DNA of 39,728 bases from Pelagibius sp. (GTDB taxonomy: Bacteria > Pseudomonadota > Alphaproteobacteria > Kiloniellales > Kiloniellaceae). Below, one piece after another: positions 21,520-38,991 of the stretch (position 1 is its first letter; each line of letters opens with the position of its first letter). The notes below the pieces were generated by a model, which saw only the letters and a program-made list of their open reading frames with translations, ran no database searches and was not told where the DNA came from. The DNA lies in the NCBI RefSeq assembly GCF_028289705.1, contig NZ_JANQOI010000047.1, positions 1 through 39,728 on the forward strand, read 5' to 3'. The translations under genes and the position numbers were made by a program.

Positions 21520-22431
21520 TCATCGCCGGCCCCTCTGGCCGCGCTTCTCGAGGCGGGCGAAGACCACCGCGAAGAAATAGCAGACGACGAAGTACATCAC
21601 GCCGACGACGATCCAGGTCTCGAAGACCCGGGTGGTCGAGGCGGCGACCTCGATGGCGACGAAGGTCAGCTCCTGGATGGAAATCAGGGAGACGATCGCC
21701 GAGTCCTTCACCAGGGTGATGAACTGGCCGGCCAGGGGCGGCAGGATCTTGCGGATCGCCTGGGGCAGGATGACGTCGCGCAGCACGTTGAAGCGCGACA
21801 GGCCGACGGCGCGCGCCGCCTCCCACTGCCCTTTCTCGATGGACTGGATGCCGGCGCGCACGATCTCGGTGATGTAGGCGCCCTCGAACATGGCGAGACA
21901 GATCATGCCGGCCAGGAAGTTGGAGAACAGACCGATGGGGCCGAACAGGAACTCGATGACCCTGGCGGTCTCCGGCGAGGCGTTGCGCGCGAACTCGTCC
22001 ACGCCGAGCAGCGGCATGATCTGGCCGGAGATGAAAAAGTAGAAAACGAATATGAAGACGACCGGCGGGATATTGCGGATCAGTTCCACATAGAGCCGCG
22101 CGACCATGCGCAGGAATAGGTTGGAACTGGTCCTGCAGAGGCCCATCACCAGGCCGATGATCGCGGCGGCAATGGTGCCCCAGAAGGCGAGCCGCAACGT
22201 CGTCAGCAGCCCGGTGACCAGCAGGTTGGGAACCAGGTCGCCGGCCTCGTCACGCCTTACGACGAACTGCAGGACGGTGTCCCAGCTCCACTTGTAGACC
22301 AGGACACTTTCGACCCGATAGGCGATATAGACCACCCCCGCGGCCACGAGCGCAAAGATCAGCAGATCGATCAGCGTCAGCTTGACACGTTTCTTGACCG
22401 GCGGCGGCAGGCGCTCGGTGGTGGTGGCCAT
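21520..22431 (-). CDS. Polar amino acid ABC transporter permease (second)
   Basis: 303 residues from ATG 22431 (an in-frame extension to 22485 is unlikely). HisM/GlnP-type permease with a long N-terminal extension and an extra first helix ([22 protein letters not shown]), then the core: [42 protein letters not shown], and the EAA loop region [49 protein letters not shown], which docks on the ATPase. The N-terminal extension resembles that of the AapQ-type permeases of general amino acid transporters. It pairs with the permease encoded at 23378-24226. Confidence 0.92.
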
Positions 22432-22490
22432 GGCGGTTTCCGGCGGTCGGGGGCCTCCGGACAAACCGGAGGCCCCCTCCCCCACTTACG

Positions 22491-23327: not shown

Positions 23328-23377
23328 AACTTACCTCCCGTCTTTCGATACGATCTTCCGAACTGTTTTGGCATTTC

Positions 23378-24283: not shown

Positions 24284-25759
24284 TCAGAGCGTGAGCGGAT
24301 TGGCGGTGATCCTGTCCAATCCGACCCAGACACTCTTAGTTTGCGTGTAGGCGGCCATGACCTCCAGGCCGTTCTCCCGCCCGAACCCGCTTTTCTTATA
24401 TCCCCCCACCGGAGACGCGATGCTGACATGCCGGTAGGTGTTCACGTAGACCGTTCCGCTTTTCAGCAGCTTCGCCATCCGGTGCCCGCGGCGGATGTCG
24501 GTGGTCCAGACGCCGGCCGCCAGCCCATAGGGGCTGTCGTTGGCGGCCCGGACCGCCTCTTCCTCGCTGTCGAAGCGGGTGATGGCCAGCACCGGCCCGA
24601 AGACCTCATCGCGCCAGATCTCCATATCGTCGGAGACCGCGTCGAAGATCGTCGGCTCCACGAACATGCCGGCCCCGATGTCCTTCGCCGCACCGGGCGA
24701 TCCCCCGCAAAGACAGCGCGCACCGGCCGCCTTCGCCCGCTCGATGAAGCCCAGGACCTTTTCGAATTGCATGCGGTTGGCGATGGGTCCGATCTGGGTC
24801 TGTGGGTCCATGGGATCGCCGAAGCGCAGGCCCCGCACCGCCTCGATCAGCCGCGCGGTGAAGTCCTCGGCGATCGCGCTCTGCAGCAGCAGGCGGGAAC
24901 CGGCCACGCAACTCTGCCCGTTGGACTGAAAGATGCCGGAGATGACGCCGTTGACAGCGCTGTCCAGGTCCGCGTCCTCGAAGACGATCTGCGGCGACTT
25001 GCCGCCCAGTTCCATGGTCACATGCTTGAAGCTGTCCGCCGCCGCGCGGTTGATCTTGCCGCCGCCGACGTCGGAGCCGGTGAAGGAGACCTTGGCGACC
25101 TGCGGGTGGCTGACCAGCGGCGCCCCGGCTTCCTCGGGCATGCCGGTGACCACGTTGACCACGCCGGGCGGGAAGCCGGCCTCGTCAAAGACCTCCATCA
25201 GGGCAAGGGTCGAGGCCGAGGCGTGCTCCGAGGGCTTGACGACCACGGTGTTGCCGGCGGCCAGGGCCGGCGCGATCTTCCAGACCGCGATCATGATCGG
25301 CGAGTTCCAGGGCGTCACCGCCGCCAGCACCCCCAGCGGCTCGCGCAGGGTGTAGTTCAGGGTGTCGGCGCGGTCGATGGCGGTGACCCGCCCCTCGATC
25401 TTGTCGGCGATCCCCCCGTAGTAGCGGAACCACTCCGCGACGTAGCGGATCTGTGGTACGGTCTCGGCGATCCGCTTGCCGGTGTCGCGGGTTTCCAGCT
25501 CACCCAGGTCGCGGGCGCGCGCTTCCAGGCCGTCGGCCGCCTTCATCAGCAGCCGGCCGCGCGCCGCCGGCAGGGATTGGGCCCAGGCGCCGTCCTCGAA
25601 GGCGGCGGCGGCGGCGGCCACCGCGCGCTCCACATCGGCGGCATTGCAGCGGGGGATGCGCGCCCAGGGCTTGCCGTCGAAGGGATTCGACGTCTCAAAC
25701 CATTCGCCTGAAGCCGGATCTTCCCAACGCCCTGCGATGTAGAGCTGATAAGACTTCAC
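24284..25759 (-). CDS. NAD(P)+-dependent aldehyde dehydrogenase
   Basis: 491 residues, GTG start at 25759. Full set of ALDH residues: N152 in the PWNSP motif, K175 in VKPSEHAS, FTGSDVGG, E250 in ELGGKSP, catalytic C284 in GQSCVAGSRL, and EVFGPVLAI later. It resembles the betaine/aminobutyraldehyde dehydrogenase group. First gene of the transporter operon, so the aldehyde probably comes from the imported compound. The nearby aminotransferase and TPP decarboxylase would yield an aldehyde (e.g. sulfo- or phosphonoacetaldehyde), which this enzyme could oxidise to the acid (inference). Divergent from the LysR gene at 25927, its likely regulator. Confidence 0.93.
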   Translation of the reverse strand: MKSYQLYIAGRWEDPASGEWFETSNPFDGKPWARIPRCNAADVERAVAAAAAAFEDGAWAQSLPAARGRLLMKAADGLEARARDLGELETRDTGKRIAETVPQIRYVAEWFRYYGGIADKIEGRVTAIDRADTLNYTLREPLGVLAAVTPWNSPIMIAVWKIAPALAAGNTVVVKPSEHASASTLALMEVFDEAGFPPGVVNVVTGMPEEAGAPLVSHPQVAKVSFTGSDVGGGKINRAAADSFKHVTMELGGKSPQIVFEDADLDSAVNGVISGIFQSNGQSCVAGSRLLLQSAIAEDFTARLIEAVRGLRFGDPMDPQTQIGPIANRMQFEKVLGFIERAKAAGARCLCGGSPGAAKDIGAGMFVEPTIFDAVSDDMEIWRDEVFGPVLAITRFDSEEEAVRAANDSPYGLAAGVWTTDIRRGHRMAKLLKSGTVYVNTYRHVSIASPVGGYKKSGFGRENGLEVMAAYTQTKSVWVGLDRITANPLTL

Positions 25760-25926: not shown

Positions 25927-26904
25927 ATGATCACCCTTCGCCAGATCGAGGCCTTTCGCGCCGTCATGATATCGGGGACTGTGACCCAGGCCGCGAGCAT
26001 GCTCTTCGTGTCCCAGCCGGCCGTCAGCCGGATTCTCGGCGACCTGGAGCGCGAGGTCGGCTTTAAGCTGTTCACCCGCGCCAACCGCCAGCTCATCCCG
26101 ACCGACGAGGCCCGGGCGCTCTACGACGAGGTGGAGCGCGCCTTCATCGGCCTTCAGCAGATCGATCAGTCCGCCGCATCGATCCGTCAGTACCGCGGCG
26201 GGCTGTTCCGCCTGATCACCATTCCCAGCCTGGCCTCGACCATCATGGCGGACCTGATCGCCCGCTTCGTCGAGCGCTATCCCGATATCATGGTCTCCCT
26301 GGAGATCCGGCCCTCGCAGCGGGTCTTCGAATGGATCGTCTCGCAGCAGTGCGACATGGGCCTGGCCTCTACCCCCACCGACAGCACCAGCGTGGTCACG
26401 CGGCCCATCGCCATCGCCAACGCGGTCTGCGTCCTGCCGGAGGGCCATTCCCTGACCCGCAAGAAGACCATCCGCCCCAAGGATCTGGCCGGGTTGCCCT
26501 TCATCTCCTACAAGAGCGACGCCGCCTTCCGCCACAAGGTCGACGAGATTTTCGCCCAGTCCGCGGTGGTGCGCGATATGAAGCTGGAAGCCCGCACAAC
26601 CGAAGGCATCTGCGGGCTGGTGTCGGCCGGTCTCGGCGTTTCGGTGGTGGCCCCGGTGGTCTCCACCGAACCCTTCCCCGGCGGCCTCGCCTTCCGCGCC
26701 TTCCAGCCGGCGATCCCCCAGGAACTGACGCTGATCTATTCGGCCGCCAAGTCGCTGTCGCGCCTTTCGGTCCAGTTCATCGACGTAGTGGAGGAGTACA
26801 TGGCCGAAATCCGCCCGGCCCCCGTGGCCAAGGGCGGTGTCGGGCTGATCCCCTACGGTGCCCCAGGCACAGAGGCCGGCAGGCGGCGCCCCGGCTCAAA
26901 GTAA
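25927..26904 (+). CDS. LysR-family regulator, NocR/OccR (opine-type) group
   Basis: 325 residues from ATG 25927. Helix-turn-helix at residues 1-60 (LRQIEAFRAVMISGTVTQAASMLFVSQPAVSRILGDLE), then an effector domain with SLASTIMADLIARFVERYPDIMVSLEI, FEWIVSQQCDMGLAS, and LEARTTEGICGLVSAGLGVSVV. It is a paralogue of the LysR protein at 9981-10889; a rough reading suggests 40-45% identity over much of the length. It has an unusual basic tail (GTEAGRRRPGSK). It probably activates the ALDH-ABC transporter operon and perhaps the convergent aminotransferase-decarboxylase genes that end 15 bp away. Confidence 0.92.
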   Translation: MITLRQIEAFRAVMISGTVTQAASMLFVSQPAVSRILGDLEREVGFKLFTRANRQLIPTDEARALYDEVERAFIGLQQIDQSAASIRQYRGGLFRLITIPSLASTIMADLIARFVERYPDIMVSLEIRPSQRVFEWIVSQQCDMGLASTPTDSTSVVTRPIAIANAVCVLPEGHSLTRKKTIRPKDLAGLPFISYKSDAAFRHKVDEIFAQSAVVRDMKLEARTTEGICGLVSAGLGVSVVAPVVSTEPFPGGLAFRAFQPAIPQELTLIYSAAKSLSRLSVQFIDVVEEYMAEIRPAPVAKGGVGLIPYGAPGTEAGRRRPGSK

Positions 26905-26919
26905 GTCCGGCAACCGCGC

Positions 26920-27501
26920 TCAAGCAGAGGACGATATGCGCTCTCTCAAGGCCTGGCGGAAAGTCTCGCGCGACGCCGCGCTGTGAATGGCGGGATAGTC
27001 CTGCGGATAGGCCGTCCCCTGCGCGACCGCCAGCACCACGAACACCGGGCCCTCGAGGCGCAGGATCTCGCCCACCCGGTCCTCGAAGTCTTCGAGCTCC
27101 GAGAAACTGAAGACGTTTGGAATGCCGGCGGCCTGTGCGATGCCGGCAAAGTCGACGCCGCGGCCGCCGGGCACGGGAAAACGGCCATTCACCTCGTATT
27201 CGCCGTTGTAGCAGAGGAAGTGCACGAGGTTCTTGGGCGCCGCGTTGGCGATGGTCACCAGGGCGCCCAGGTTCATCAGGAGGCTGCCGTCGCCGTCAAG
27301 GACGACGACCTTTTCCCCCGGGCAGCCCAGCGCCAGGCCCAGCGCGTGGGAGGAGGCCTGGCCCATGGCGCCGGTGCAGAGATAGTTCAGCGGATGGGGC
27401 CGGATCGCCATCCAGTCGAACGCCGACTGATAGACCGGAACGACGATGCCGTCGGGGTAGTGGTCGGCCAGGACCGAGAGAGCCGCGTCGCGTTGCATCA
27501 T
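26920..27501 (-). CDS. TPP-binding decarboxylase subunit (ComE / phosphonopyruvate decarboxylase-like, beta)
   Basis: 193 residues. It is the C-terminal (TPP pyrophosphate-binding) half of a split 2-oxo-acid decarboxylase. The TPP motif is GDGSLLMNLGAL at 70-81 with the conserved Asn at 99 (YNGEYEVNG), and CTGAMGQASSHALGLALG near 42-60 is the preceding conserved loop. It pairs with the alpha half encoded 3 bp upstream. Split enzymes of this kind include sulfopyruvate decarboxylase (ComDE) and phosphonopyruvate decarboxylases, which act on 3-carbon oxo-acids with a strong acid at C3. The aminotransferase upstream would make the oxo-acid. Acetolactate synthase is ruled out because the FAD-domain part is missing. 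Exact substrate unknown. Confidence 0.87.
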   Translation of the reverse strand: MMQRDAALSVLADHYPDGIVVPVYQSAFDWMAIRPHPLNYLCTGAMGQASSHALGLALGCPGEKVVVLDGDGSLLMNLGALVTIANAAPKNLVHFLCYNGEYEVNGRFPVPGGRGVDFAGIAQAAGIPNVFSFSELEDFEDRVGEILRLEGPVFVVLAVAQGTAYPQDYPAIHSAASRETFRQALRERISSSA

Positions 27502-27504
27502 GGG

Positions 27505-28041
27505 TCAGGCCGGGCTCCGTGGAACGAGGAAGACGTGCGGTTTCGATGCCGCATAGCAGTCGTCGATGGTGGTGGCCATGGCGGCGGCGTCATCGTTCTG
27601 ATCGAGGACGCTGTGGCTCAACTGCATGGCGTCCATGATCGGGCCCATGATGCGAACGCCCAGCTTGTCGGACTCCGCCGGGGCGCGATCCGCTTCCATG
27701 CCCTGCAGGCCGACGATCATGACCACGGGAAGCGCGTACTCCACCGCGATGGCGCGAATGGCGTTGATCGAGTCCAGAAAGCCGGTGTGCTGGATCAGCA
27801 GGACCGCGCGCTCGTCGCAGTAGGACAGGCCGGCGCAGATCGAGATGCCTTCGTCTTCCTTGCAGACCTGCACCAGCCGCAGCCCGGGGTCGCGCGTCAC
27901 GGGCCACAGCAGCGTCTCGCAGGTGACGATGTCCGGCAGCGCGACCACGGTGCCGATTCCCGCCTGCTTGATGGATGCGATGATCGCGGCGCCGCTGACC
28001 GGCGCCGCCCTATCCGCGGTCTCTATGGCAGCCTCCCGCAT
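27505..28041 (-). CDS. TPP-binding decarboxylase subunit (ComD / phosphonopyruvate decarboxylase-like, alpha)
   Basis: 178 residues from ATG 28041; a GTG one codon earlier (28044) is also usable. It is the N-terminal (pyrimidine-binding) half of a TPP decarboxylase: SGAAIIASIKQAGIGTVVALPD near the start, CKEDEGISICAGLSYCDERAVLLIQHTGFLDSINAI, where the Glu in CKEDEG is the activating Glu, and a closing VFLVPRSPA. The ATG overlaps the aminotransferase stop by one base (TGATG). The three genes therefore make one tightly coupled unit in which the aminotransferase makes the oxo-acid and this two-subunit enzyme decarboxylates it. Confidence 0.87.
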   Translation of the reverse strand: MREAAIETADRAAPVSGAAIIASIKQAGIGTVVALPDIVTCETLLWPVTRDPGLRLVQVCKEDEGISICAGLSYCDERAVLLIQHTGFLDSINAIRAIAVEYALPVVMIVGLQGMEADRAPAESDKLGVRIMGPIMDAMQLSHSVLDQNDDAAAMATTIDDCYAASKPHVFLVPRSPA

Positions 28042-29138
28042 CACGCGGCACCCTCCATCTTGAAGAACCCTTCCATCGCGTCGGCCACCGCATCCATCTC
28101 GCTTTCCAGCCCGATGGTGAAGCGAATGCAGTCGGCAAAGCGCGGCGACGCCAGGCGGCGGGCCTGAATGCCCTGAGACAGCAGGTAGGCGTCGGCCGCC
28201 ACCGCCGTCCGTGTCGGGTCCGGAAAGCGCACCAGGACGAAGTTCGTCTCGCTGGGATAGACCTTGAGGCCGAGGGCCGCCAGCCGCTCACCGAAGGCCG
28301 TCCTCAAGCGCTTGGTCTCGGAGAAGACAAACTGCCGATGGGCTTCGTCTTCCAGCGCCGCCAGGGCCGCCGCCAGGGAGAGGCTGGAGAGCGGGAAGGT
28401 GCTGCCGATCCGCTTGACCGCGTCGACCACCGCCGGGGCCCCGTAAAGCCAGCCGACCCGCGCCCCCGCAAGGCCATAGATCTTGGAGAAGGTGCGCGTC
28501 ATCACGATGTTGTCAAAGGCCTCGACCAGGCGGTCGGGCCGTTCGTAGTCGGGCCTGTCGACATATTCCGCATAGGCGGAGTCCAGCACCAGCAGCACAC
28601 CGCCGGGAAGGCCGGCCCGCAGCCGCCGTATCTCGTCGGCAGTGACCAGCGAACCGGTCGGATTGTCCGGGTTTGCCAGCATCACCATGCGTGTGCGCGG
28701 CGTCACCGCCGCCAGAAGAGCGTCCACATCCGCGGTGAAATCCCGGTCGGGCGCGGACACGGGCACTGCGTCGTTGGCGTGGGCGTAGTTGGGAATCTTC
28801 TGATAGCCGTTGACGCTGTAGATCAACTCGTCGCCGGCCCGCAAAAAGGCCCGCGCCAGCCGCGACAGCAGATCGTCCGAACCGGGACCGCAGGCGATGC
28901 GGTCGATGTCCAGCGACTGGCTCTCGGCGATGGCCGCCGCCAGCCGGTCGGGACCTTCCTCCGGATAGCGCTCCAGATCGCGCACCGCAGCCTCGGCGGC
29001 ACGATAAGCCTTGGGGCTCGCGCCGAAGGCACTCTCGTTGGAAGCGATACAGATCCTCGGCCGCAGCGCACCGCCTTGCGGCGTGATCATGTGGGGGCGG
29101 ATGTTCAGGAGTCCGGGGCGCGGATTGAGAGCGGACAT
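28041..29138 (-). CDS. Class I/II (HisC-like) aminotransferase
   Basis: 365 residues from ATG 29138. PLP aminotransferase of the histidinol-phosphate aminotransferase type: ICIASNESAFGASPKAY and YPEEGPDRLAAAIAE near the start, GPGSDDLLSRLARAFL, NPDNPTGSLVTADEI with the PLP-binding Asn, and the PLP Lys in TRTFSKIYGLAGARVGWLYG. It is not in a his operon. It is first in a unit with the split TPP decarboxylase, so it is more likely catabolic, acting on an amino acid whose C3 acid group resembles phosphate (cysteate or phosphonoalanine; HisC enzymes bind a phosphate-containing substrate). This is a hypothesis. Confidence 0.9.
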   Translation of the reverse strand: MSALNPRPGLLNIRPHMITPQGGALRPRICIASNESAFGASPKAYRAAEAAVRDLERYPEEGPDRLAAAIAESQSLDIDRIACGPGSDDLLSRLARAFLRAGDELIYSVNGYQKIPNYAHANDAVPVSAPDRDFTADVDALLAAVTPRTRMVMLANPDNPTGSLVTADEIRRLRAGLPGGVLLVLDSAYAEYVDRPDYERPDRLVEAFDNIVMTRTFSKIYGLAGARVGWLYGAPAVVDAVKRIGSTFPLSSLSLAAALAALEDEAHRQFVFSETKRLRTAFGERLAALGLKVYPSETNFVLVRFPDPTRTAVAADAYLLSQGIQARRLASPRFADCIRFTIGLESEMDAVADAMEGFFKMEGAA

Positions 29139-29370
29139 CTCTGTTTCCCTTTGCTTCTCTTTCGAAGCCGTCGGGTGACGCTCCGACGTAGGCCCCTGCG
29201 CGGGGGCTGCACGATTGGGGCAGCTGCAAGCGCCTGGCGCGCCTGTCGTTTGCACACGTCGGGTATGATCTGCAGATCGATCTATAAAATCAAATGAGTA
29301 TTATTACCCTTAATATTCGCAGACATTATATTGCAGGTCCTGCCAGAGAGACACCGGCGTGCGCCCATCT

Positions 29371-30336
29371 TCAGGATTCTTTGGCCTTCAACCGCTCGCG
29401 CCGGCTGATGTAGGCGGCACTGCCGACGATGATGGCCCCGCCCAGCAGCGACCAGGTATCTGGGAACTCGGCAAAGGCGAAATAGCCGATGGCACCGGCC
29501 CAGATCAGGCGCAGGAAATCGAGCGGCAGCACCAGCGTGGCGTCGGCGAGTTGCAGCGCGCGGGTCATGGCCAGGTGCCCGGCGGAGCCCAGACAACCGA
29601 TCAGGAACAGAAAGAAAAGCTGTTCCCAGGTCGGCGTGGACCAGACCCAGAGCGCCGGCAGGAACGTCAGAGCGGTCATCAGCACTGCATTCCAGGAAAC
29701 GATGCACAGCGGCGATTCGGTGGTCGAGAGGGACTTAACGACGATCATGGCAAGACCCCAGCAGGCCGAGGAGATCAGTACCATCCAGACATAGATATCG
29801 ATCTCCTGAAAGCCGGGCCGCAGCATGATGAGGGCACCGAGGAAACTGACGGCGATGGCGATGCTGCGCCGCAGCCTGATCACTTCGCCGAGAAAGATCA
29901 CCGCGCAGAGCGATGCGAAGACGATGCCGGTGAAGCTGAGCGCCGTCGCATCGGCGATGGGCACGAAGGCGAGCCCGGTGAACCAGAGGGTCATCGACAC
30001 AGCGCCGATGATGCCGCGGACGAGATGGGTGCCCGGCCGGCTGGTTTTCATCACCTCCCGGCCGCTGCGGAGGATCAGCGGCAGCAGAAAGAGCAGGCCG
30101 AAGAGGTTGCGGAAAAATGCCACCTCCAGAGTGTTCATGTCCTGCCCGACATGGCGCACCAGGGCATGCATGACCGAAAGGATCAGGGTCGACAGCGCCA
30201 TGAAGAGGATGCCGCTGACCTGCCGGCGCGCCGCCCGGCGCTCAGGCGTAGGTTCCTTCCCCTCTCCCGGCGGGCCGGGAAAATAGGCCTGCAGGCTGCC
30301 ACTGCGCATGGCGGGTAAGAAACGGGGGCGCCTCAT
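29371..30336 (-). CDS. EamA/DMT-family transporter
   Basis: 321 residues with ten predicted membrane helices in two EamA repeats. The first runs about residues 40-165 (ILFMALSTLILSVMHALVRHVG, VAFFRNLFGLLFLLPLIL, LWFTGLAFVPIADATALSFTGIVFASLCAVIFLGE); the second about 180-312 (WMVLISSACWGLAMIVVKSL, IGYFAFAEFPDTWSLLGGAIIVGSAAYIS). A cytoplasmic N-terminus of about 40 residues precedes it. Such proteins export or import amino acids and metabolites. It is 42 bp after the ferredoxin gene and is the last gene of the Rieske operon; a role in moving the substrate or a by-product is likely. Confidence 0.9.
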   Translation of the reverse strand: MRRPRFLPAMRSGSLQAYFPGPPGEGKEPTPERRAARRQVSGILFMALSTLILSVMHALVRHVGQDMNTLEVAFFRNLFGLLFLLPLILRSGREVMKTSRPGTHLVRGIIGAVSMTLWFTGLAFVPIADATALSFTGIVFASLCAVIFLGEVIRLRRSIAIAVSFLGALIMLRPGFQEIDIYVWMVLISSACWGLAMIVVKSLSTTESPLCIVSWNAVLMTALTFLPALWVWSTPTWEQLFFLFLIGCLGSAGHLAMTRALQLADATLVLPLDFLRLIWAGAIGYFAFAEFPDTWSLLGGAIIVGSAAYISRRERLKAKES

Positions 30337-30378
30337 GGGGTCGATAGGGATGAGGCGCGGGTCACGGGTCTCGGCGCG

Positions 30379-30702
30379 TTAGTCTTGGGTCTCAGGCGTG
30401 CGCACGAGCAGCCCGTCGAGGCTGTCGGCGATCTCGATCTGGCAGGACAGGCGGGAAGTCTCGGTCCGCGGCGCGGCGGCGAAATCCAGCATGTCGTCCT
30501 CGCCGGCTTCCCGCGCCGGCAGCTTGTCGATCCACGCGGGGTCGACATAGACGTGACAGGTCGCGCAGGCACAGGCACCGCCGCAGTCGGCCAGGATACC
30601 GGGAATGTTGTTGTTGCGCGCGCCTTCCATGACGCTGAGGCCGTTTGCCACATCGACGGTGCGCTCGGTGCCGTCGTGCTCGACATAGGTAATCTTGGTC
30701 AT
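30379..30702 (-). CDS. [2Fe-2S] ferredoxin, adrenodoxin/putidaredoxin type
   Basis: 107 residues from the ATG at 30702. Cluster ligands C40, C46, C49 and C87 in the C-x5-C-x2-C...C spacing of vertebrate-type ferredoxins ([17 protein letters not shown] and RLSCQIEI). This kind of ferredoxin shuttles single electrons from a CamA-like FAD reductase to a P450 or, in class IIA Rieske systems, to the oxygenase. No P450 gene is present. The reductase gene is 76 bp upstream and the Rieske oxygenase gene starts the same operon, so these three form one electron chain. Confidence 0.93.
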
Positions 30703-30778
30703 ACTCGTCCCGTATCTCCAGCCCGCTGCGTGGATTCGCGCGCGCTGCCCCCCGGCCTCGCCGCGCCCCGCTACGCTC

Positions 30779-32002
30779 TCACTTTGCCAGGGCCGCGCCA
30801 AGCGCCTTGAGGTCACTCTGCGGATCGGCAAGTGCTTCCGCGGGGGGCGACTCGCCTGCCTCGATCCAGCGCTTGCCCATCATATAGCTGCGCGGGTCGT
30901 TCATCGCATCCACCGCCAGCAGTTCGTCGCCCCGATAGTACCAGACAGACTGGGCCCGGGCCCCGCCGCCGGCGCGCACCACGGTCTTGTCGTAGCCGGC
31001 GGACAGCCCGGCAATCTGCAGCTTGACGTCGTACTGGTCCGACCAGAACCAGGGCCTCGCGCGATAGCCGGCCGTGCCGCCCATCATCGAGGCCGCGGTA
31101 GCCTCAGCCTGGTCGATGGCGTTGCCGACGCTTTCCAGACGCACCCGCCCGCCGCGATAGGGAAAGGAGGTGCAGTCGCCCGCCGCGAAGATGGCGGGGT
31201 CGGAGGTGCGGCCGTCACCGTCGACGCGGATACCGTTCTCCACCGCCAGCCCCGCCGCCTCGGCCAGGCCGGTCGACGGCCGGATGCCGATGCCGACCAC
31301 CGCGAAATCGATGTCCAGGCTGGTCCCGTCGGCAAAGCTTGCGGCAGAAACCCGCCCCTCGCCCGTCAGGCCGGTCACCGCCGTGCCCTCGCGCAGGTCC
31401 ACGCCGTGGGCGCGGTGCAGATCGGCGAAGAAGCCCGAGGTCGCCGGCGCCGCCACGCGTTGCAGAATGCGTTCAGCCATTTCGACCAGGGTCACCGCCA
31501 GGCCGCGCGCCGCCGCCACGGCGGCGATTTCCAGGCCGATGTAGCCGCCGCCGATCACCAGCACCCGTCTGCCCTCGACGAACTCCGCTGCCATGGCGTC
31601 CGCATCCGCCAGGGAGCGCAGGGTGTAGACCCCGGCCAGCGTCCCGCCGATCTCCCCGGGCAGGCGGATCGGATCGGAGCCGGTGGTGAGCGCGAGCTGG
31701 TCGTAGGCAAGGTTCTCGCCGTTGTCGAGGGCCACGGCCTTCGCGGAGCGGTCGATGGCGGTGACCGTCACGCCGCCGCGCAGCTCGATCCCCTGCTCGC
31801 CGTAGAAGGTTTCCGGGCGCAGATAAAGCCGCTCCGCGTCCAGTTCGCCCATCAGGTATTTCTTGGAGAGCGGCGGGCGCTGGTAGGGCGGCGCGTGCTC
31901 GCTGCCGATCAGCGTGATCGATCCGTCGTGGCCCAGCGCACGCAGCTTGGCCGCCAGGGACGCGCCCGCCTGTCCTGCTCCAACGATCACGATCCGCGAC
32001 AT
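30779..32002 (-). CDS. FAD/NAD-dependent ferredoxin reductase (CamA/ThcD-like)
   Basis: 407 residues. Pyridine nucleotide-disulfide oxidoreductase fold: FAD GxGxxG at 6-12 ([14 protein letters not shown]), an [16 protein letters not shown] segment typical of putidaredoxin/rhodocoxin reductases, a second NAD-binding [17 protein letters not shown] motif near 155, [13 protein letters not shown], and a reductase C-domain ([17 protein letters not shown]). It would take electrons from NAD(P)H to the adjacent ferredoxin, and so to the Rieske oxygenase at 34.5-35.9 kb. Whether it also serves the VanA-like oxygenase at 3.4 kb is open. Confidence 0.92.
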
Positions 32003-32015
32003 GGCGGACTCCTCT

Positions 32016-33299
32016 CTAGGCCAGCCGCTGCTGGACCCAGAGCGCGGCGGCCAGCAGCCTGCGGTCGGCGCCGCGGCGGCCGACCAGTTGCACCGAGAGC
32101 GGCAACCCCTGCGGGCCGCTGCCGAAAGGAATGGAGATACACGGCATCCCCAGCAAGGTCCATGCGCGGCTGAACAGCGGATCGCCGGTGGCGCCCAGGC
32201 CTGCGGGTGCTTCGCCCGGCGCGGCGGGCGCGAGGATCACGTCGATGTCGGTGAAGAGCACATCCATGGCACGCACGGCCTGCGCCGTGATCCGCCGGGC
32301 TTCGTCATAGGCCTCGCGTGAGATGGCCAGACCGCCTTCCACCAGATCCGCGAAAGCCTCGCTGATCCCATCGCGGTGCCGGTGAAACTCGAAGGCCCGG
32401 GCCCGCGCCGTCTCGAAGGCCATAATGACCTTCTGGCACTCGGTGAGTTCGGCAAAGACCTCCGGATGCGCCTGCTCACCGGTCTCCGCGCCCTGGCCCG
32501 CCAGGGCCTCCAGGGCACGCTGGCAGACGTCACGCATCTCCAGCGAGCCTTCCCACCAATGGGGCCCGCGCATCAGCGCGATCCGTGGCGCGTCTTCGGC
32601 GAAGTCGTCGCCCAGCGCCGCCGGCTCGCGCGTCAGCACCGCGCCGGCCAGGGCCAGATCCTCCACCGTGCGGGCCAGCAGCCCCAGGGTGTCGAGGCTG
32701 GGCGACAGACCCATGACGCCCTGCAGGTCATAGGCGCCGAGGCTCGGCTTGTAGCCCAGGATCCCACAATAGGCGGCGGGCCGGATCAGCGAGCCCGCGG
32801 TCTGGGAGCCGAAGCCGAGCGGCGCCATATCGTCGGCCACGGCGGCGGCCGAGCCGCTGGAGGAGCCCCCGGGGGTATGGCCCGGGTTGCGCGGGTTCGC
32901 GGTCTTGCCGGGGTTGAAGTAGGCGAATTCGGTGGTGACGGTCTTGCCCAACGGCACCGCGCCGGCCTGGAGGAACAGCTCGACGCAACTGGCGTTGCGC
33001 GGCGGCTGAAACCCCTCGTAGATCGGCGAGCCCCAGCCGGTGGGGAAGTCGGCGGTGTCGATGATGTCCTTGATCGCAAAGGGAACGCCGTGGAGGGGGC
33101 CGGCGGCCGGACCGGCATCGGCAGCCCGTGCCGCTGCCAGCGCCTTCTCCGCGTCGAGATGGATGAAGGCGCCGACCTCCGGCTCGCGGGCCTCGATCCG
33201 CGCCAGGCAGGCGCGCATCACCGCTTCCGCGGAGAAATCGCCCCGCGCGATCCCGGCGGCGATTTCCGTGGCGCTCAGACTATTCAGGGGCTGCTCCAT
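32016..33299 (-). CDS. Amidase (amidase signature family)
   Basis: 427 residues. Amidase signature Ser-cisSer-Lys hydrolase: K77 in FAIKDIIDT, the G144-GSSSGSAA loop supplying the cis-Ser near 146-147, and the nucleophile S170 in GSQTAGSLIRPAAYCG. The tail PCISIPFGSGPQGLPLSVQLVG is also typical. Its ATG directly follows the stop of the DUF1116 gene (no bases between) and the reductase gene is 13 bp downstream. In this operon it probably cleaves a C-N bond of the substrate or of the oxygenase product, or an N-carbamoyl intermediate. Substrate not known. Confidence 0.92.
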   Translation of the reverse strand: MEQPLNSLSATEIAAGIARGDFSAEAVMRACLARIEAREPEVGAFIHLDAEKALAAARAADAGPAAGPLHGVPFAIKDIIDTADFPTGWGSPIYEGFQPPRNASCVELFLQAGAVPLGKTVTTEFAYFNPGKTANPRNPGHTPGGSSSGSAAAVADDMAPLGFGSQTAGSLIRPAAYCGILGYKPSLGAYDLQGVMGLSPSLDTLGLLARTVEDLALAGAVLTREPAALGDDFAEDAPRIALMRGPHWWEGSLEMRDVCQRALEALAGQGAETGEQAHPEVFAELTECQKVIMAFETARARAFEFHRHRDGISEAFADLVEGGLAISREAYDEARRITAQAVRAMDVLFTDIDVILAPAAPGEAPAGLGATGDPLFSRAWTLLGMPCISIPFGSGPQGLPLSVQLVGRRGADRRLLAAALWVQQRLA

Positions 33300-34502
33300 C
33301 TAACCCCCGAGCGCCGCCACCGCATCGCGGAAGGGGGCCGCCGGCATGTCGTAGATCCCGCCGCCGATGCGCCCCGCGTGACCTTCGCGGTCCAGCATTC
33401 CCAGGCCGACGACCGGACCGGCCCCGAGACCGGCGGCGGCCCGGGCGGTGATGCCGAGGCGGATGCCGAGAGCCTGAAAGCCCGGATGCTCAGCGGCCAG
33501 CAGACTTGCAACCCGCGCATCGCTGTCGGGCGGTAGATAGGGGCCGAGGCGCTGCATCTGTTCGGGCGACAGGTGGAAGGCCATGGCGCCGAGACCGAAG
33601 GCTTCCACCACCGCGCTGTCGCCGATGGCGCCCAGGGCGCGCTCCGCCGGAAGATCGACGTCCAGGGGACCCTTGGGCGGTCTCGCCGCCGCGGTGAACC
33701 AGCGCCCCGGCAGGCCGGAGACCTGAATGCCCACCGCCGCGCCGTTGCCGGCGGCCGCCGTGACAAAGCTCGACCCATCGATGCCCGAGGCCGCGGTCAT
33801 CATGCATTTCGTGGCGGCCATCCAGAGATTGAGGAACAGGCTGGGCGAGGAGGCCATGAACTCCAGAGTCCCGGCATCCTGAATACCGCCCGGCGTGTGC
33901 GCCTGAAGCTCGCCGACCAGCGCCTCGGTGGCGGCGATGGTGCGGCCATGGCAGTCGTCCCCGGCCTGCAAGCCGGCAACGGCCAGCGGAATCAGGGCTA
34001 TGCCCTCGCCGATGCCCTGCTGCAGGGTTTCGCAGAAGGGGCCGTTCAGCCAGCGAATGTGGTCCAGCACCGCCTGCTCGCGCAGGCCCAGACGCATCGA
34101 CGGGCGCGACCCGCCGTTGATGGGCGTATAGACCCGCGGCCCGTCACCCCCGGCGCTGCGGACCCCATGCAGCGGCATCGACGCGCTGACCACCGCCGCC
34201 AGGGGCGTCACCACGCCATGGTCCTGTGCCGGAGCCAGAACGATGTCGCCGGCGGCGATCATGGCCTCGGCGGCATCGAAGTCTTCGGCCAGGCCCTCGA
34301 AGACCGCCGCCACGCAGGCGGAGTTCAGGATCGGCCGGGTGATCTCCGCGGCCGAAGCGAAGGGCGGGCCGGCATGAAGCAGCACCTGCTTTTCCAGGCC
34401 CACCGCCGAGGCCGCTGGTTCCAAGCAATCCCACAGCGGCTGGCTTGCCGCCATCCGCTCGCAGGCCAGCCGGTCCGCCGGATGCAGAGCCTCCCCCGCC
34501 AT
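33300..34502 (-). CDS. DUF1116 protein, distant AllG (YlbE)-like
   Basis: 400 residues from ATG 34502 (GGGGGAG before it; an in-frame opening to 34700 is low-complexity). It aligns by eye along its length with AllG/YlbE, a subunit of oxamate carbamoyltransferase (AllFGH): VLLHAGPPF, ACVAAVFEGLAEDFDAAEAMIAAGDI, VVSASMPLHGV, FMASSPSLFLNLWMAATKCMM, AAAGNGAAVGIQVSGLPGRWFTAAARPPKG, and AIGDSAVVEAFGLGAMAF. Two blocks differ from AllG: PCHHVNAVGPMGG is PAQDHGVVTPLAA here, and NEGIGKVMRFGA is NGGSRPSMRLGL. The partner genes allF (fdrA) and allH (DUF2877) are absent, so it may have a different function. Flanked by a Rieske oxygenase (25 bp) and an amidase gene. Confidence 0.85.
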   Translation of the reverse strand: MAGEALHPADRLACERMAASQPLWDCLEPAASAVGLEKQVLLHAGPPFASAAEITRPILNSACVAAVFEGLAEDFDAAEAMIAAGDIVLAPAQDHGVVTPLAAVVSASMPLHGVRSAGGDGPRVYTPINGGSRPSMRLGLREQAVLDHIRWLNGPFCETLQQGIGEGIALIPLAVAGLQAGDDCHGRTIAATEALVGELQAHTPGGIQDAGTLEFMASSPSLFLNLWMAATKCMMTAASGIDGSSFVTAAAGNGAAVGIQVSGLPGRWFTAAARPPKGPLDVDLPAERALGAIGDSAVVEAFGLGAMAFHLSPEQMQRLGPYLPPDSDARVASLLAAEHPGFQALGIRLGITARAAAGLGAGPVVGLGMLDREGHAGRIGGGIYDMPAAPFRDAVAALGG

Positions 34503-34527
34503 GACGATCTCCCCCGTTTGTCGGCGT

Positions 34528-35946
34528 CTACAGAGCGCCGGATTGCCTTTGTTGGTCGTGCTCCTGCGGCGCGGCGCCCATCTGCGGCCCGCCTTGCCAG
34601 CTCGCCTCGTAATCCTCGAGCCCGCGCCGGATGAAGGCGGCACGCTCCTTGCCCTGAAGATGGTCCGCCGACATGTAGATCTCAGCAACCTTGTGGGCAA
34701 CCTCCTTCAGCAGGGCCGCATCGTCATGCCCCTCCTGCGCGGGGATGCGCAGCATGGTGTCGCCGCCATAGGTCGGGATCGTGCCGTTGAAGATCAGCGC
34801 CGGCTGGGCGGCGTCCTCGCCGGCCTGAACCGCCCGGATCGCGGCGCGCAGCGTGCGCCGCACCTTGGCCACGCCGCGGTCGGTGAAGCCCAGGTTCTCC
34901 CGGGCGTGGACGTTCTTGGGTCCCTGCGAGGCCCAGGCGTCGTAGTCGCCGGGGTCGCGCTGGCGCTGCTCGTAGGGGCGGTCACCGCCCTGTCCATAGA
35001 AGTCGGTCTTGCCGTAGCCCACCTCGTTCCGGTCAGTCAGGCCCTGCGGATCGTCGCCCTCGCGGAAGTGGCGCCAGGCGATGACCATGGTGTTGGTGTC
35101 GTCGATGGGCGTCACCCAGCGGCTCAGCCCGCAACGGCCGAAGTAGCGCGGCCCGTCGGGCACCGGAAAGTGGCCGCCGTTCTGCGTGAAGCTCGGCAGC
35201 ATTTTGTCGTGGATGCGCAGCCAGATGATGTCGCCCACCCGCCGCGTGTTGGTATAGAAGCTGCCGTAGGGCCGCTCGAAGAACTCGATGGCCGGCAACT
35301 CCGCGAAGGCATCGATGAACTGGGTGCGCACCGCCTTGGTGTGGAGATAGACCACGTGGAAGGGATCCCAGGCGTTCTCCATCACCTGCAGCCAGTTGCA
35401 GGGCGAGTTGATGAGGTAGGGGATCATCTCGTCGCCCTCCTCGTCGAAGGTATCGAAGACCGGGAAAGGCGGCATGCTTTCCTGCGGGCCCATGTAGGTG
35501 AAGGCCAAGCCCTTGAACTCGATCACCGGATAGGCGCCGAGACAGGCCTTGGTCTTGATCTGGCTGGCCGGGGGTTCGCAGGGCGTCTCCAGGATCGTGC
35601 CGTCGGGCGCATACTTCCAGCCGTGATAGCTGCAGCGGATGCCGCCCTCCTCGATGATACCGAACTCCAGCGACATGTTGCGGTGGGCGCAGTGAAGATG
35701 CACCAGCCCCAGGGTGCCGCCCTTCTCGCGGAACAGCACCAGATCTTCGCCCAGGACCCGCACCCGGAGGGGCAGATCGCCCACCTGATCGGTCATCGCA
35801 AAGGGCATCCAGTAGCGCCGCAGATACTCGCCGCAGGGCGTGCCCGGCCCCACGTCGGTCAGCTCGGGATCGGGCTCGGCGGTCCACACCTGCTGGCGCT
35901 CGTGTCCCCGGAAGCGGCCGCTGGGAATTGCGAACTCGGTTGTCAT
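34528..35946 (-). CDS. Rieske non-heme iron oxygenase, large (aromatic ring-hydroxylating type) alpha subunit
   Basis: 472 residues from ATG 35946 (GGAGAG 7 nt upstream). Rieske ligands C86-x-H88 and C105-x2-H108 (HCAHRN...CSYHGW). Mononuclear iron site E190-x3-D194-x2-H197-x4-H202 (MENAWDPFHVVYLH). Layout resembles the phthalate 4,5-dioxygenase/LigX group. Tail region is hydrophilic (GGPQMGAAPQEHDQQRQSGAL). No beta subunit gene is present, as in that homotrimeric group. First gene of a six-gene operon that also encodes the matching reductase and ferredoxin, so a complete class IIA oxygenase system. The substrate is not predictable; amidase and DUF1116 genes in the operon suggest a nitrogen-containing compound. 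Confidence 0.92.
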   Translation of the reverse strand: MTTEFAIPSGRFRGHERQQVWTAEPDPELTDVGPGTPCGEYLRRYWMPFAMTDQVGDLPLRVRVLGEDLVLFREKGGTLGLVHLHCAHRNMSLEFGIIEEGGIRCSYHGWKYAPDGTILETPCEPPASQIKTKACLGAYPVIEFKGLAFTYMGPQESMPPFPVFDTFDEEGDEMIPYLINSPCNWLQVMENAWDPFHVVYLHTKAVRTQFIDAFAELPAIEFFERPYGSFYTNTRRVGDIIWLRIHDKMLPSFTQNGGHFPVPDGPRYFGRCGLSRWVTPIDDTNTMVIAWRHFREGDDPQGLTDRNEVGYGKTDFYGQGGDRPYEQRQRDPGDYDAWASQGPKNVHARENLGFTDRGVAKVRRTLRAAIRAVQAGEDAAQPALIFNGTIPTYGGDTMLRIPAQEGHDDAALLKEVAHKVAEIYMSADHLQGKERAAFIRRGLEDYEASWQGGPQMGAAPQEHDQQRQSGAL

Positions 35947-36375
35947 CTTTAGACTCTCCACTCCTCAGATCTCGGACGGGCCGGGCGCTCCATCGGATGC
36001 AGCCTACCGCCTGCGACGGCGGTCGCGCATCGGGTCAGCCGGTGCAGCGGGGCGCGATGGCCACGACGGTCCCGTCTTGCGCCCTCCGGGCGCCACAAAG
36101 GCGCGCAAGGACACAGAATAAGGACGTCCAGCGGACCAATCTAAGGAAGGGTTCATATGATGAAAAGTGATATTTATTCCGAGCCAAATAACCAGAAATT
36201 ATAAACACCACAGCCTTGCCAGAGCGCTGCAACCGAACCACAAACCATAACCCTGGTGAATGTGGGATGTATGATAAATCAATTGACCACATGCATTGAT
36301 GGCCGAAGAATATTTGCCTGAGAATGGGTTGGCGTGTGGATCGGGCCTGCGCGTCGCCGGAAAAGTGAGGCGAGC
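35947..36375. promoter_or_regulatory. Divergent promoter region between the Rieske operon and the paralogue pair
   Basis: 429 bp without a supported gene. The half next to the Rieske gene is G/C-rich and includes a GGCGCCACAAAGGCGCGC segment at 36090-36107 that resembles decayed intergenic repeat sequence. About 36140-36320 is markedly A/T-rich, with GATATTTATTCC and AAATTATAAAC stretches, likely containing both promoters. No certain operator or -10/-35 pair is called. Confidence 0.4.
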
Positions 36376-37005
36376 ATGGGGGAACGCGCGCGCACAGCGG
36401 TCAACCGCGGACGCGTCGAGTGGACGGGCGACAATCCGGGGATCTATCTGAAAACAGAAGCGGGCGGCGACTGGACGGCGCTCGCCGTCTCGTTTCAGAT
36501 CACCCTGTCGCCCCACGGCCGCGGCCGGGCCATGGTGGTGCTGGGGTCGCCGGATGAGGCCGCGAGCTACCCCGACGCACCCAACCTCTGCATCACCGAC
36601 AACCCGCCACTGATGCACTATCTGATCGACGGTTTCCTGTCCAAGTTCCCAACCTTCCGGGGGCGTGCCGGCCTTGGCGCCATGCGCTTCCTGCCGCTCA
36701 CCGAGATCCTGCGGGAGGGCTCCTACGAGACCCGCTATGTCGAGACCATGAAGAGCAACGACACAAGCCTTGCGCTGACCTGGGGCGACCTGGGGGCGCC
36801 CTTTGCCGTCGAAGTCGCGCCGGAGCAGTCCGCCACCGGCGAACACGACATGTACTCCCTGTTCATGGAAGCCCGCTCCGGCGGGATTGCCGTCGACGGC
36901 CAGGTCCTCCCGGGCGAGATCGTCGAGCGGCCGTTCTTCGGAACGATGATGAGTTCGGCCTTTCTCGCCTTGTCCGAAACCTGGGTCACGCCCAACGCAA
37001 CTTAG
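36376..37005 (+). CDS. Conserved protein of unknown family, paralogue 1
   Basis: 209 residues from ATG 36376 (GAGG 5 nt upstream). No known domain, signal peptide or membrane helix seen. It is a clear paralogue of the next gene: both have VN-x-G-x3-W-x-G-x-NPGI-x-LK near residue 10-25, a SP-x-G-x-G-x-A segment, an N-x3-I....H-x-L-x-D-x-F block, W-x2-LG-x-P-x-A-x-E, EARS-x2-I-x-(V/I)DG-x2-LPG and a final SETW-(V/I)-x-P. Length is equal. Mixed alpha/beta, cytoplasmic by appearance. Position divergent from the Rieske operon and before a third repeat copy suggests it takes part in the same pathway, perhaps as an enzyme or ligand-binding pair. I do not recognise the function. Confidence 0.85.
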   Translation: MGERARTAVNRGRVEWTGDNPGIYLKTEAGGDWTALAVSFQITLSPHGRGRAMVVLGSPDEAASYPDAPNLCITDNPPLMHYLIDGFLSKFPTFRGRAGLGAMRFLPLTEILREGSYETRYVETMKSNDTSLALTWGDLGAPFAVEVAPEQSATGEHDMYSLFMEARSGGIAVDGQVLPGEIVERPFFGTMMSSAFLALSETWVTPNAT

Positions 37006-37047
37006 GGCCCAACGTAGTTTAGGGCCCTACACAATTTAAGGACCGCC

Positions 37048-37677
37048 ATGCCAATCCAGCCTGCCGTCAATCCCGGCGCGATCGACTGGTCCGGGGAGAA
37101 TCCGGGGATCCTGCTGAAGGAGGACCCCGACGGGCCCTTCAGTGCCATGGCGCTGTTCTTCCGCATCGCCTATTCGCCGGTGGGCCAGGGCGAGGCGCTG
37201 CTGCTGTTCGAAAAGCCGACAGTGGCCGAGAGCCTTCCGGCCGTGCGCAACGTGATGATCAGCACCAGCGAGGCCTTGGGTCATTTCCTTGCCGACAAGT
37301 TCATCGCAAAGCTCGCCGCTTTCGCCGAGGCGCCCGCTTTCGCCGCGATGCAGCACGTGCCGGCCCGCAATGTCCGCAGCGAGGGCGATCCCCTCGACCG
37401 CTACGCGGAGATCGTCGAGACCGAGGATTTCACGGTGGAACTGCGCTGGAGCGAGCTGGGCCCGCCCATCGCCCTCGAACTGCCGCCGAGCCTGACCGGT
37501 CCCAAGGACCGTGAACTCTTCACGGTGCTGGTGGAGGCCCGCTCGGCCACCATCCTGATCGACGGCGTAGCGCTGCCCGGCGTGCCCGTGCCGCGGGTCC
37601 AAGCCGGCATCGAGACCACCACGGCGTTCCTCTATTTCTCGGAGACCTGGATCGTCCCGGAAGCGCCGGCAGCCTGA
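37048..37677 (+). CDS. Conserved protein of unknown family, paralogue 2
   Basis: 209 residues from ATG 37048 (AAGGA 5-6 nt upstream), 42 bp after paralogue 1 and on the same strand, so in one operon. The same motifs as paralogue 1 are kept (INPGI-type start WSGENPGILLK, SPVGQGEA, GHFLADKF, ELRWSELGPPIALELPPS, LVEARSATILIDGVALPG, FLYFSETWIVP). By eye about one residue in three is identical. Strongest shared blocks are the ends, with a more variable middle. The equal size and tandem position suggest a gene duplication giving a heterodimer, or two enzymes with different substrates. No function assigned. Confidence 0.85.
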   Translation: MPIQPAVNPGAIDWSGENPGILLKEDPDGPFSAMALFFRIAYSPVGQGEALLLFEKPTVAESLPAVRNVMISTSEALGHFLADKFIAKLAAFAEAPAFAAMQHVPARNVRSEGDPLDRYAEIVETEDFTVELRWSELGPPIALELPPSLTGPKDRELFTVLVEARSATILIDGVALPGVPVPRVQAGIETTTAFLYFSETWIVPEAPAA

Positions 37678-37974: not shown

Positions 37975-38991
37975 GTGAGTTTTGACTGGTCCCTCAGCCG
38001 TATCCACTGCCCGGTCGATCTGGCGGCGCGCGGCAAACGCGCCGGGCATCTCGAACTGCCGCACTCGGACAACGCCAATCCCCTGGGGTACTATCCGATC
38101 CCCATCATGACCATCGTCGGCGGGCCCGGACCGACCACGCTGCTCACCGGCGGCGTCCACGGCGACGAGTTCGAGGGGCCCGTCGCCCTGCTCGACCTCT
38201 TCCACGACCTGGAGCCGGACGACATCAAGGGGCGGCTGATCCTTCTTCCCGCCCTCAATGCCCCGGCGGTGCGGGCCTCCGCGCGGGTCTCACCGCTCGA
38301 CGGCGGCAATCTGAACCGCGCCTTTCCCGGCGCGCGCGACGGCGGACCCACGGCCATGCTGGCCCATCTGGTCGAGTCGGTTCTGATGCCCCACTGCGAT
38401 GCCGCCATTGACCTGCATGCCGGCGGCCAGGCCTCGGTCTTCGCACCCTGCGCGCTGGCCGCGCGGACCGCCGAGGGTGAACTCAGCCCGGAGAACATGG
38501 CCCTCGCAGAGGCCTTCGCCGCCCCGGTGATCTGGGTGCTGGGCCGGCACAACGACAACCGCTCGGTCAACGCGGCGGCAACCCGGCACGGCCTGCCGAT
38601 GATCGCCGCCGAACTCGGCGGCAACGGCGCCGTCACCCCGGCGATCCTGGAGATTGCCAAGCGCGGCCTGCGCAACTGCCTGGGGCATCTCGGCCACCTC
38701 GAGCGCAGCGCCCCGCCCGCCGAGCCGGTAGTGAAGGTCGAGGTGCGGGCCGCGGATCACAAGGTCTGCCTGCCCTCCGAAGGGCTTTTCGAGCCCCTGG
38801 TGGAGGCCGGCGAGCGCGTCGCCGAAGGCGCGCCGATCGCCCGCTTGCATTCGCTGGAAGACCCCGCCAGGGAAGCGCTTACCCTTCACGCCCCCACGGC
38901 GGGCCTGGTCCTCTCCCTCGGCACCCGCGGCTATGTGCGCCACGGCGACTTCGCCGCGCTCATCGCCACGGTGATCGACGAAGCGGCCTGA
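37975..38991 (+). CDS. AstE/AspA-family deacylase, DoeB-like
   Basis: 338 residues, start GTG 37975 (MSFDWSLSR). Zinc carboxypeptidase-like fold of the succinylglutamate desuccinylase/aspartoacylase family: zinc ligands H62 and E65 (GGVHGDEFEGP) and H148 (IDLHAGG), NLNRAFPG for substrate binding, and a C-terminal beta-rich domain with KVCLPSEGLFEPLVEAGERVAEGAPIARLHSLEDP. Length and C-terminal domain match DoeB, which deacetylates N-acetyl-2,4-diaminobutyrate in ectoine breakdown, and similar N-acyl amino acid deacylases. No ectoine genes (doeA, ectABC) are near, so the substrate may be another N-acyl amino acid or diamine. Convergent with the FGGY kinase gene. Confidence 0.9.
   Translation: MSFDWSLSRIHCPVDLAARGKRAGHLELPHSDNANPLGYYPIPIMTIVGGPGPTTLLTGGVHGDEFEGPVALLDLFHDLEPDDIKGRLILLPALNAPAVRASARVSPLDGGNLNRAFPGARDGGPTAMLAHLVESVLMPHCDAAIDLHAGGQASVFAPCALAARTAEGELSPENMALAEAFAAPVIWVLGRHNDNRSVNAAATRHGLPMIAAELGGNGAVTPAILEIAKRGLRNCLGHLGHLERSAPPAEPVVKVEVRAADHKVCLPSEGLFEPLVEAGERVAEGAPIARLHSLEDPAREALTLHAPTAGLVLSLGTRGYVRHGDFAALIATVIDEAA

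Follow-up and report, generated by a model that had tools for sequence, protein, structure and literature searches.

A run of six closely spaced genes in the alphaproteobacterium Pelagibius sp. raises the question as to whether a Rieske oxygenase, an AllG-like (DUF1116) protein and an amidase are parts of one pathway, and what such a pathway would consume. The run occupies positions 29371-35946 of the 39,728-nt stretch of contig NZ_JANQOI010000047.1 analysed here, which in its entirety we call the window (records and loci carry L numbers, genomes G numbers and contigs C numbers). It encodes, in this order, the Rieske oxygenase (ROX), the AllG-like protein, the amidase, a ferredoxin reductase, a ferredoxin and an EamA-family transporter. 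A sequence-only reading had described these genes as an operon with gaps of 0-76 bp, and Pfam matches, an open reading frame (ORF) check and gap measurement confirm both the genes and the spacing: all six lie on the minus strand with zero internal stops, and the gaps from ROX to EamA are 25, 0, 13, 76 and 42 bp. The minus-strand run continues past 29371 with genes for a HisC-like aminotransferase and the alpha and beta subunits of a thiamine diphosphate (ThDP) enzyme, down to 26920; 115 bp separate EamA from the first GTG of the HisC-like gene, whose true start is probably later. Promoter-like signals (1 found vs 1.0 expected) and terminator-like signals (5 vs 5.2) in 26500-37100 are at chance level, and therefore neither support nor break a single operon.

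Comparison with other records shows that the conserved unit is a different one. Conservation counts are based on the 12 records, window included, with an AllG at least 50% identical to that of the window: seven from a GTDB-contig scan with two AllG peptide patterns (eight loci, L045 lying wholly inside L017 of G008), G008, G271 and G360 from a whole-genome AllG search, a Ruegeria conchae plasmid, and the window itself. The scan records were found by AllG peptides alone, and the Ruegeria plasmid was the best plasmid match to AllG. A gene was scored as present when the fetched stretch gave a BLAST match at 1e-5 that covered 40% or more of the query. ROX lies near AllG in all 12 records, with a gap of at most 1.6 kb and an identity to the window ROX of 50% in L017 and 71-84% in the other ten. 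An amidase gene adjoins AllG in 10/12; the misses are L046, where the contig ends inside AllG, and L017, where the 2.6 kb that follow AllG hold no amidase gene. Two conserved genes, hypA and hypB, are present as two ORFs in 10 records, as many as have HisC with both ThDP subunits or an aldehyde dehydrogenase (ALDH), while the LysR-type regulator is found in 8 and a deacylase in 6. The reductase, ferredoxin and EamA genes, by contrast, each occur in 1/12, the window, with zero BLAST homologues in the stretches fetched for the other 11 records. The six genes as a conserved unit are therefore rejected: the expected co-occurrence elsewhere holds for ROX, AllG and the amidase but fails for the other three, and the real unit extends to the aminotransferase, decarboxylase, ALDH, importer, hypA/hypB and deacylase genes. 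The case shows that a reading of six adjacent genes can overlook the conserved unit. A thirteenth record, from Variovorax, is counted apart from the 12 because it was fetched on account of a plasmid carrying both AllG (43% identity) and ROX (47%); these are 4.1 kb apart, with an amidase 3.0 kb beyond and a single hyp ORF. In L049 the amidase is not adjacent and only one hyp ORF is present. The cluster is rare, with AllG at 50% identity or more in 3/385 genomes of the class and in 1/398 of the phylum, namely the window's own, and ROX at 70% or more in the same three class genomes (3/385). Taken together, we consider it likely that ROX, AllG and the amidase act in one pathway.

The AllG-like protein (33300-34502, minus strand; 400 residues, start taken at ATG 34502 rather than the listed TTG 34700) matches PF06545 along the entire model (1-215 of 215) with 202 bits, and the solved structure 3clq with 150 bits. 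A tree of 45 AllG proteins splits into two sides with a Shimodaira-Hasegawa-like approximate likelihood ratio (SH-aLRT) support of 100 (quick search, SH-aLRT only, midpoint root; proteins with fewer than 300 aligned residues dropped, including the cut AllG of L046). The AllFGH-type side has 16 rows, 11 labelled as having AllH and 5 unlabelled. The other side, with the window AllG, has 29: 13 linked to a xanthine dehydrogenase (XDH) type enzyme, 12 to ROX, 2 to another Rieske enzyme with a VanB-type reductase, and 2 unlabelled. These labels were assigned manually on the basis of annotation and BLAST neighbourhoods, leaving 7 rows unlabelled in all; 9 of the 11 AllH labels refer to the same contig within 5 kb, and two (L063, L067) to another contig. 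A ring-oxidising enzyme thus adjoins AllG in 27/29 rows of the branch without AllH; the contrary row, L077 (G263), has neither a Rieske nor an XDH homologue within 14 kb, and G194 (L073) was unchecked. The labels are not cleanly nested, as the ROX side also takes in three XDH rows (L078-L080; support 93, an open fork), and L049, L053 and L081 form long branches.

AllH (PF11392) had zero matches in the window's genome, with a positive E. coli control, and was found in 0/11 ROX-linked genomes, compared with 14/43 genomes or records overall. Throughout the 29-row branch AllH lies beside AllG in none (28/29 hosts searched, six as plasmids only); in three of these hosts (G357, G434 and G268) AllH is present, but next to a second copy of AllG. 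Of the unlabelled AllFGH-side rows, three were without an AllH match (G087, G227 and G049, the last of which is 69% complete), while G138 and G355 were not searched. AllF was not seen among the cluster genes profiled; a genome-wide AllF search was not made. In E. coli oxamic transcarbamylase AllF, AllG and AllH are each needed, according to the excerpt of PMC11326118 consulted. Since AllH was not found in the ROX-linked genomes and E. coli needs each subunit, the window AllG, a DUF1116 protein, is not part of the known three-part enzyme on this feature. Its missing AllH and separate branch also lower the odds of a plain oxamic transcarbamylase. Of the sequence-only proposal, oxidation followed by C-N cleavage is reasonable for a conserved core of ROX, AllG and amidase, but carbamoyl transfer as by AllFGH is unsupported, as the genome lacks an AllH match and, going by the same excerpt, all three E. 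coli genes are required. Both branches have the same six polar residues (E69, R137, D182, H185, N253 and D295), each conserved at 90% or more, so that the chemistry may be related. The XDH-linked AllG of G357 lies within 20 kb of genes of the HIUase/transthyretin, polysaccharide-deacetylase, UbiD and class V aminotransferase families, a purine/ureide-like setting.

ROX (34528-35946, minus strand) is a single-subunit, phthalate-dioxygenase/LigX-like Rieske oxygenase alpha of 472 residues, with matches to Rieske (PF00355, 57.9 bits) and LigXa_C (PF19301, 36.9 bits). Its cluster and iron sites are intact (CxH-x16-CxxH at 86-108 and E-x3-D-x2-H-x4-H at 190-202), and C86, H88, C105, H108, D194, H197 and H202 are invariant in nine aligned sequences. 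The nearest solved structure is 7fhr, named putative phthalate 4,5-dioxygenase (154 bits). A 38-row ROX tree (fewer than 330 aligned residues dropped; quick search, SH-aLRT only, midpoint root) places the window ROX in an 11-row clade with a support of 100, in which every row is AllG-linked and the other 10 are 71-84% identical to it; in this tree "no AllG" labels a row whose fetched stretch, in many cases about 4 kb long, showed none. The window's genome (G000) has a second ROX (52%) on contig C152 (L038:9062-12219), accompanied by a Rieske-type ferredoxin-like ORF and a reductase; AllG was not seen nearby.

The amidase (32016-33299, minus strand) is an amidase-signature enzyme (Pfam, 262 bits) whose nearest solved relative, over its full length, is malonamidase E2 (1ock, 277 bits). 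The alignment with 1ock shows that the Lys-cisSer-Ser residues of malonamidase E2 are present (K77, cisS146, S170), together with an arginine at Ser+3 (R173). This arginine is found in 13/13 Rieske-linked amidases aligned (the window, L040-L044, L047, L048, L075, L076, L106, L049 and L053), as opposed to Ser+2 in 4/4 XDH-linked copies aligned. We take Lys-cisSer-Ser to have the roles they have in malonamidase E2, where Arg158 presumably binds the substrate carboxylate, a role for the arginine that was not confirmed in the literature searched. The nearest relative and the arginine at Ser+3 thus point to a carboxylated amide as the probable substrate. In L075 (2941-4266) and L076 (6493-7830) a gene of the FmdA/AmdA family (Pfam) adjoins the amidase.

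How ROX would receive electrons appears to differ between clusters. Class IIA-like three-component Rieske systems combine an adrenodoxin-type [2Fe-2S] ferredoxin with an FAD reductase. Both are present beside ROX in the window, in line with the sequence-only reading, and may serve it. The glutathione-reductase-type, HcaD/AndAa-like ferredoxin reductase (30779-32002, minus strand) has Pyr_redox_2 (PF07992, 216 bits) and Reductase_C (PF14759, 112 bits) domains, and scores 319 bits with NF042949, below the cut-off of 450. The adrenodoxin-type ferredoxin (30379-30702, minus strand; 107 residues; PF00111 (Fer2), 44.5 bits) has C-x5-C-x2-C at 40-49 plus C87; its start was taken as ATG 30702, the ORF list giving 30379-30831 from an early TTG. 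A homologue of this pair was not found in the fetched stretches of L040-L048 and L017, and L075, L076 and L049 have a VanB-type reductase, matched by BLAST in all three and by Pfam domains in L075 and L049. The clusters thus vary in their electron-transfer partner, the window pair being seen in the window alone and the VanB type elsewhere. The EamA-family transporter (29371-30336, minus strand; PF00892, 110 bits) is unmatched by BLAST to the EamA-family genes that Pfam recognises in L075 and L076.

What, then, does the cluster do? From the gene content, conservation, branch separation and motifs we would predict, at about even chances, catabolism of an N-heteroaromatic alpha-amino acid via a heteroaryl-acetate; each reaction, the order of the steps and the substrate are part of this prediction. 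A polar-amino-acid ABC importer (20730-24226, minus strand; PF00005, PF00528, PF00497) would take up the amino acid; it consists of an ATPase (20730-21479), a permease (21520-22485), a binding protein (22491-23327; nearest solved structure 9e2b, 329 bits) and a second permease (23378-24226). The HisC-like aminotransferase (28041-29255, minus strand; PF00155; TIGR01141, 240 bits, cut-off 277; nearest solved structure 4r2n, named putative phenylalanine aminotransferase) would transaminate it. The ThDP enzyme, with a sulfopyruvate decarboxylase-like alpha subunit (27505-28044, minus strand; TIGR03845, 84 bits, cut-off 148) and a phosphonopyruvate/sulfopyruvate decarboxylase-like beta subunit (26920-27501, minus strand; PF02775; TIGR03297, 107 bits, cut-off 313), may decarboxylate the 2-oxo acid to an aldehyde, which ALDH (24284-25759, minus strand; PF00171, 584 bits) could convert to the heteroaryl-acetate. 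Ring oxidation by ROX, supplied by the ferredoxin and reductase, would follow. C-N bonds would be broken by the AllG-like protein together with the malonamidase-like amidase, and a DoeB/aspartoacylase-like deacylase (37975-38991, plus strand; TIGR02994, 222 bits, cut-off 403; 216 bits to 3cdx and 197 to DoeB, 6twm) might free an amino acid such as aspartate. The LysR-type regulator (25927-26904; PF00126, PF03466) is encoded on the plus strand, as are hypA (36334-37005) and hypB (37048-37677), conserved paralogues of each other without a Pfam match.

The hyp family has homologues in 41/385 genomes of the class, and its profile gave a single match among solved structures, with an E value of 0.65. 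A role of hypA/hypB as a Rieske accessory subunit is unsupported, with a ROX homologue in 2/20 regions fetched around homologues (L106, L124). A P. aminovorans protein annotated as NAD-dependent dehydratase is among the homologues.

As to the substrate, our tentative choice, at somewhat less than an even chance, is histidine in an N-methylated or acylated form, with ROX acting on imidazole-acetate. A methylated substrate is favoured because of the VanA-type Rieske, RidA and sarcosine-oxidase-like genes at window positions 3301-9861, about 11 kb left of the importer, and their relatives in other records: L047 (VanA type, SoxA, SoxB), L048 (the same plus RidA) and, in part, L040 (RidA), L041 (SoxB) and L044 (SoxA, SoxB). 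The RidA-type gene of the window is 90% identical to that of L040 and 78% to that of L048. An amine-type variant on contig C17 of G181 (L106, L151) has a class-III aminotransferase, ALDH (59% identical), two ROX, a VanB-type reductase, a PotD-like binding protein, hypA and an amidase; amine and amino-acid routes could therefore meet at the aldehyde, as in histamine catabolism. Also in favour of the predicted pathway, neither a ring-cleavage dioxygenase nor a CoA ligase was recognised among the profiled genes of the window cluster. A still more speculative combination, unlikely as a whole, is that the AllH-less DUF1116 branch represents an enzyme of its own, independent of AllF and AllH, that opens or cleaves the N-C-N unit of a ring freshly oxidised by its partner (Rieske here, XDH type elsewhere), forming with ROX and the malonamidase-like amidase a Rieske-started route for imidazole amino acids in which hypA and hypB are new parts. 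Were the imidazole assignment true, a step for which Pseudomonas uses a flavoprotein would have a second solution, based on a Rieske enzyme, and the cluster would provide a route by which modified histidines are used. The one DUF1116 function that we found in print is that of one of three E. coli subunits (excerpt of PMC11326118), and an AllH-less branch recurring beside ring oxidases offers a handle on what the DUF1116 fold does by itself.

Several observations weigh against such a pathway. Among the matches listed, no window cluster enzyme reaches an NCBIfam equivalog cut-off, leaving the substrate unfixed, and the FmdA-family protein of L075 scores 46 bits against a formamidase cut-off of 500. 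Urocanase is present in 8/11 ROX-linked genomes, including the window's (one hit being a 28-position piece at a contig end), so that most of these genomes already have a route for plain histidine. HisC and ThDP genes are missing from the fetched stretches of L075 and L076, and ALDH from those of L043, L044 and L049. Importer types differ, with a BMP type in L043 (Pfam; L044 alike by eye) and a branched-chain type in L049 (BLAST). The G181 C17 variant has hypA and the amidase, but AllG was not seen in the fetched part, a distant AllG lying on another contig. Finally, the roughly 11 kb between the demethylation-type genes and the importer hold a tricarboxylate transporter and a PrpD-type gene.

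Other explanations account for parts of these data. The ring could be an indole, with tryptophan (or its betaine) converted via indole-pyruvate and indole-acetaldehyde to indole-acetate, which ROX would attack. The aromatic-type aminotransferase fits this, and so does the amidase, whose best NCBIfam score among the matches listed is to indoleacetamide hydrolase (250 bits, cut-off 532). Anthranilate, catechol and CoA-ligase genes were, however, unrecognised among the cluster genes profiled; AllG and the aspartoacylase-like enzyme would be left unexplained, and the closest solved amidase, over its full length, is malonamidase E2. We regard an indole substrate as improbable. Alternatively, ROX may be an O- or N-demethylase that readies a methylated substrate for other enzymes, as its LigXa_C match and the VanA-type, sarcosine-oxidase-like and RidA genes in the window and L048 could suggest; we give this little credence, as the closest solved relative bears the name putative phthalate 4,5-dioxygenase, demethylation would already be covered by the VanA-type gene, and the tight link of ROX to AllG and the amidase would go unexplained.

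A function of AllG as in AllFGH, in which carbamoyl phosphate is formed from a ureido intermediate by phosphorolysis and the partner subunits are unlinked, would agree with the shared family and the six polar residues common to both branches. It appears quite improbable in view of AllH being unmatched in the window's genome and the 11 ROX-linked genomes searched, the E. coli need for each of three genes (in the excerpted part of PMC11326118) and the separate branch of the window AllG. Least probable of all, and very unlikely indeed, is that the six genes are unrelated neighbours sharing a strand by chance. The confinement of reductase, ferredoxin and EamA homologues to the window would fit this, but ROX, AllG and the amidase recur together in 10/12 records in differing orders, and on a Betaproteobacterial plasmid; chance adjacency is largely refuted for these three and possible for EamA and the redox pair.

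The history of the locus may be mosaic. In L017, from the window's own family, a lone ROX lies between HisC and hypA, where the window has the six-gene block, and this ROX groups with the second ROX of the window's genome on C152 (support 100) and not with the window ROX. Several genes of the flanks have their nearest counterparts in L017 (one permease 76%, ALDH 64%, ThDP-beta 74%, hypA 61%, hypB 65%), whereas the ROX (84% to L040) and AllG (66-69%) of the block are closer to other records. HisC departs from this split, at 54% identity to L017 vs 58% to L040, and so does the binding protein, which is 76% identical to that of L017 but 80% over a 177-residue piece in L047. Our suggestion is a swap in place, by which the block would have come to occupy a position held in a relative by ROX alone; GC content (0.688 in the block, 0.656 in the left flank and 0.667 in the window) gives no strong sign of recent import. 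Elsewhere in the window are GXGXG and glutamine-amidotransferase genes with a helix-turn-helix-cupin regulator (537-3226), apparently unrelated tripartite tricarboxylate transporter genes with an MmgE/PrpD gene (12603-17195), and a 393-residue protein without a Pfam match, 47% identical to a Ruegeria plasmid-region protein (18220-19401). In other records, a type III glutamine synthetase (TIGR03105) lies near the cluster (L076:1814-3121), and a BMP-type binding protein and a BisC-family S/N-oxide reductase adjoin it (L043:1410-4984; L044 alike by eye).

A description of this cluster was not found in the literature searched, although one may still exist. The same literature gave nothing joining Rieske enzymes to imidazole-acetate or hercynine degradation, and the methylhistidine papers were unrelated by title. 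Several known systems resemble parts of the cluster. ROX shares with phthalate dioxygenase/LigX-type oxygenases the Rieske and LigXa_C domains, the Rieske and iron motifs and the lack of a recognised beta-subunit gene, but differs in partner genes and context and scores 154 bits to the nearest solved chain. The amidase resembles malonamidase E2 over its full length, in Lys-cisSer-Ser and in the arginine at Ser+3; unlike malonamidase E2 it belongs to an oxidative cluster, and its malonamidase-type substrate is a prediction. AllG is homologous to that of E. coli AllFGH over the whole family model, with polar residues in common, but has a separate branch, a genome without an AllH match, and linkage to a Rieske oxygenase and an amidase. 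The XDH-linked lone-AllG clusters of Azospirillum, Caballeronia and others likewise have a same-branch AllG beside a ring oxidase, some with an amidase and HpxZ, but a molybdenum hydroxylase replaces the Rieske enzyme and the amidase arginine is at Ser+2 in the four copies aligned. The nearest functional parallel is the Hin pathway of Pseudomonas putida, which, in the excerpt of PMC6467879, comprises an aminotransferase, ALDH, an FAD ring monooxygenase, an enamine deaminase and two amidases, one of them EC 3.5.1.8; the enzymes of the histamine pathway lead to aspartate (excerpts of PMC8231116 and PMC6467879). As far as these excerpts go, both systems would share an aminotransferase, ALDH, a ring oxygenase, a RidA-type deaminase, amidases and a LysR regulator, a parallel drawn from pathway logic rather than from sequences. 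The window cluster would differ in having a Rieske-type ring oxygenase rather than an FAD-type imidazoleacetate monooxygenase (HinF), in its predicted entry via an amino acid and a ThDP decarboxylase, and in the addition of AllG, hypA and hypB.

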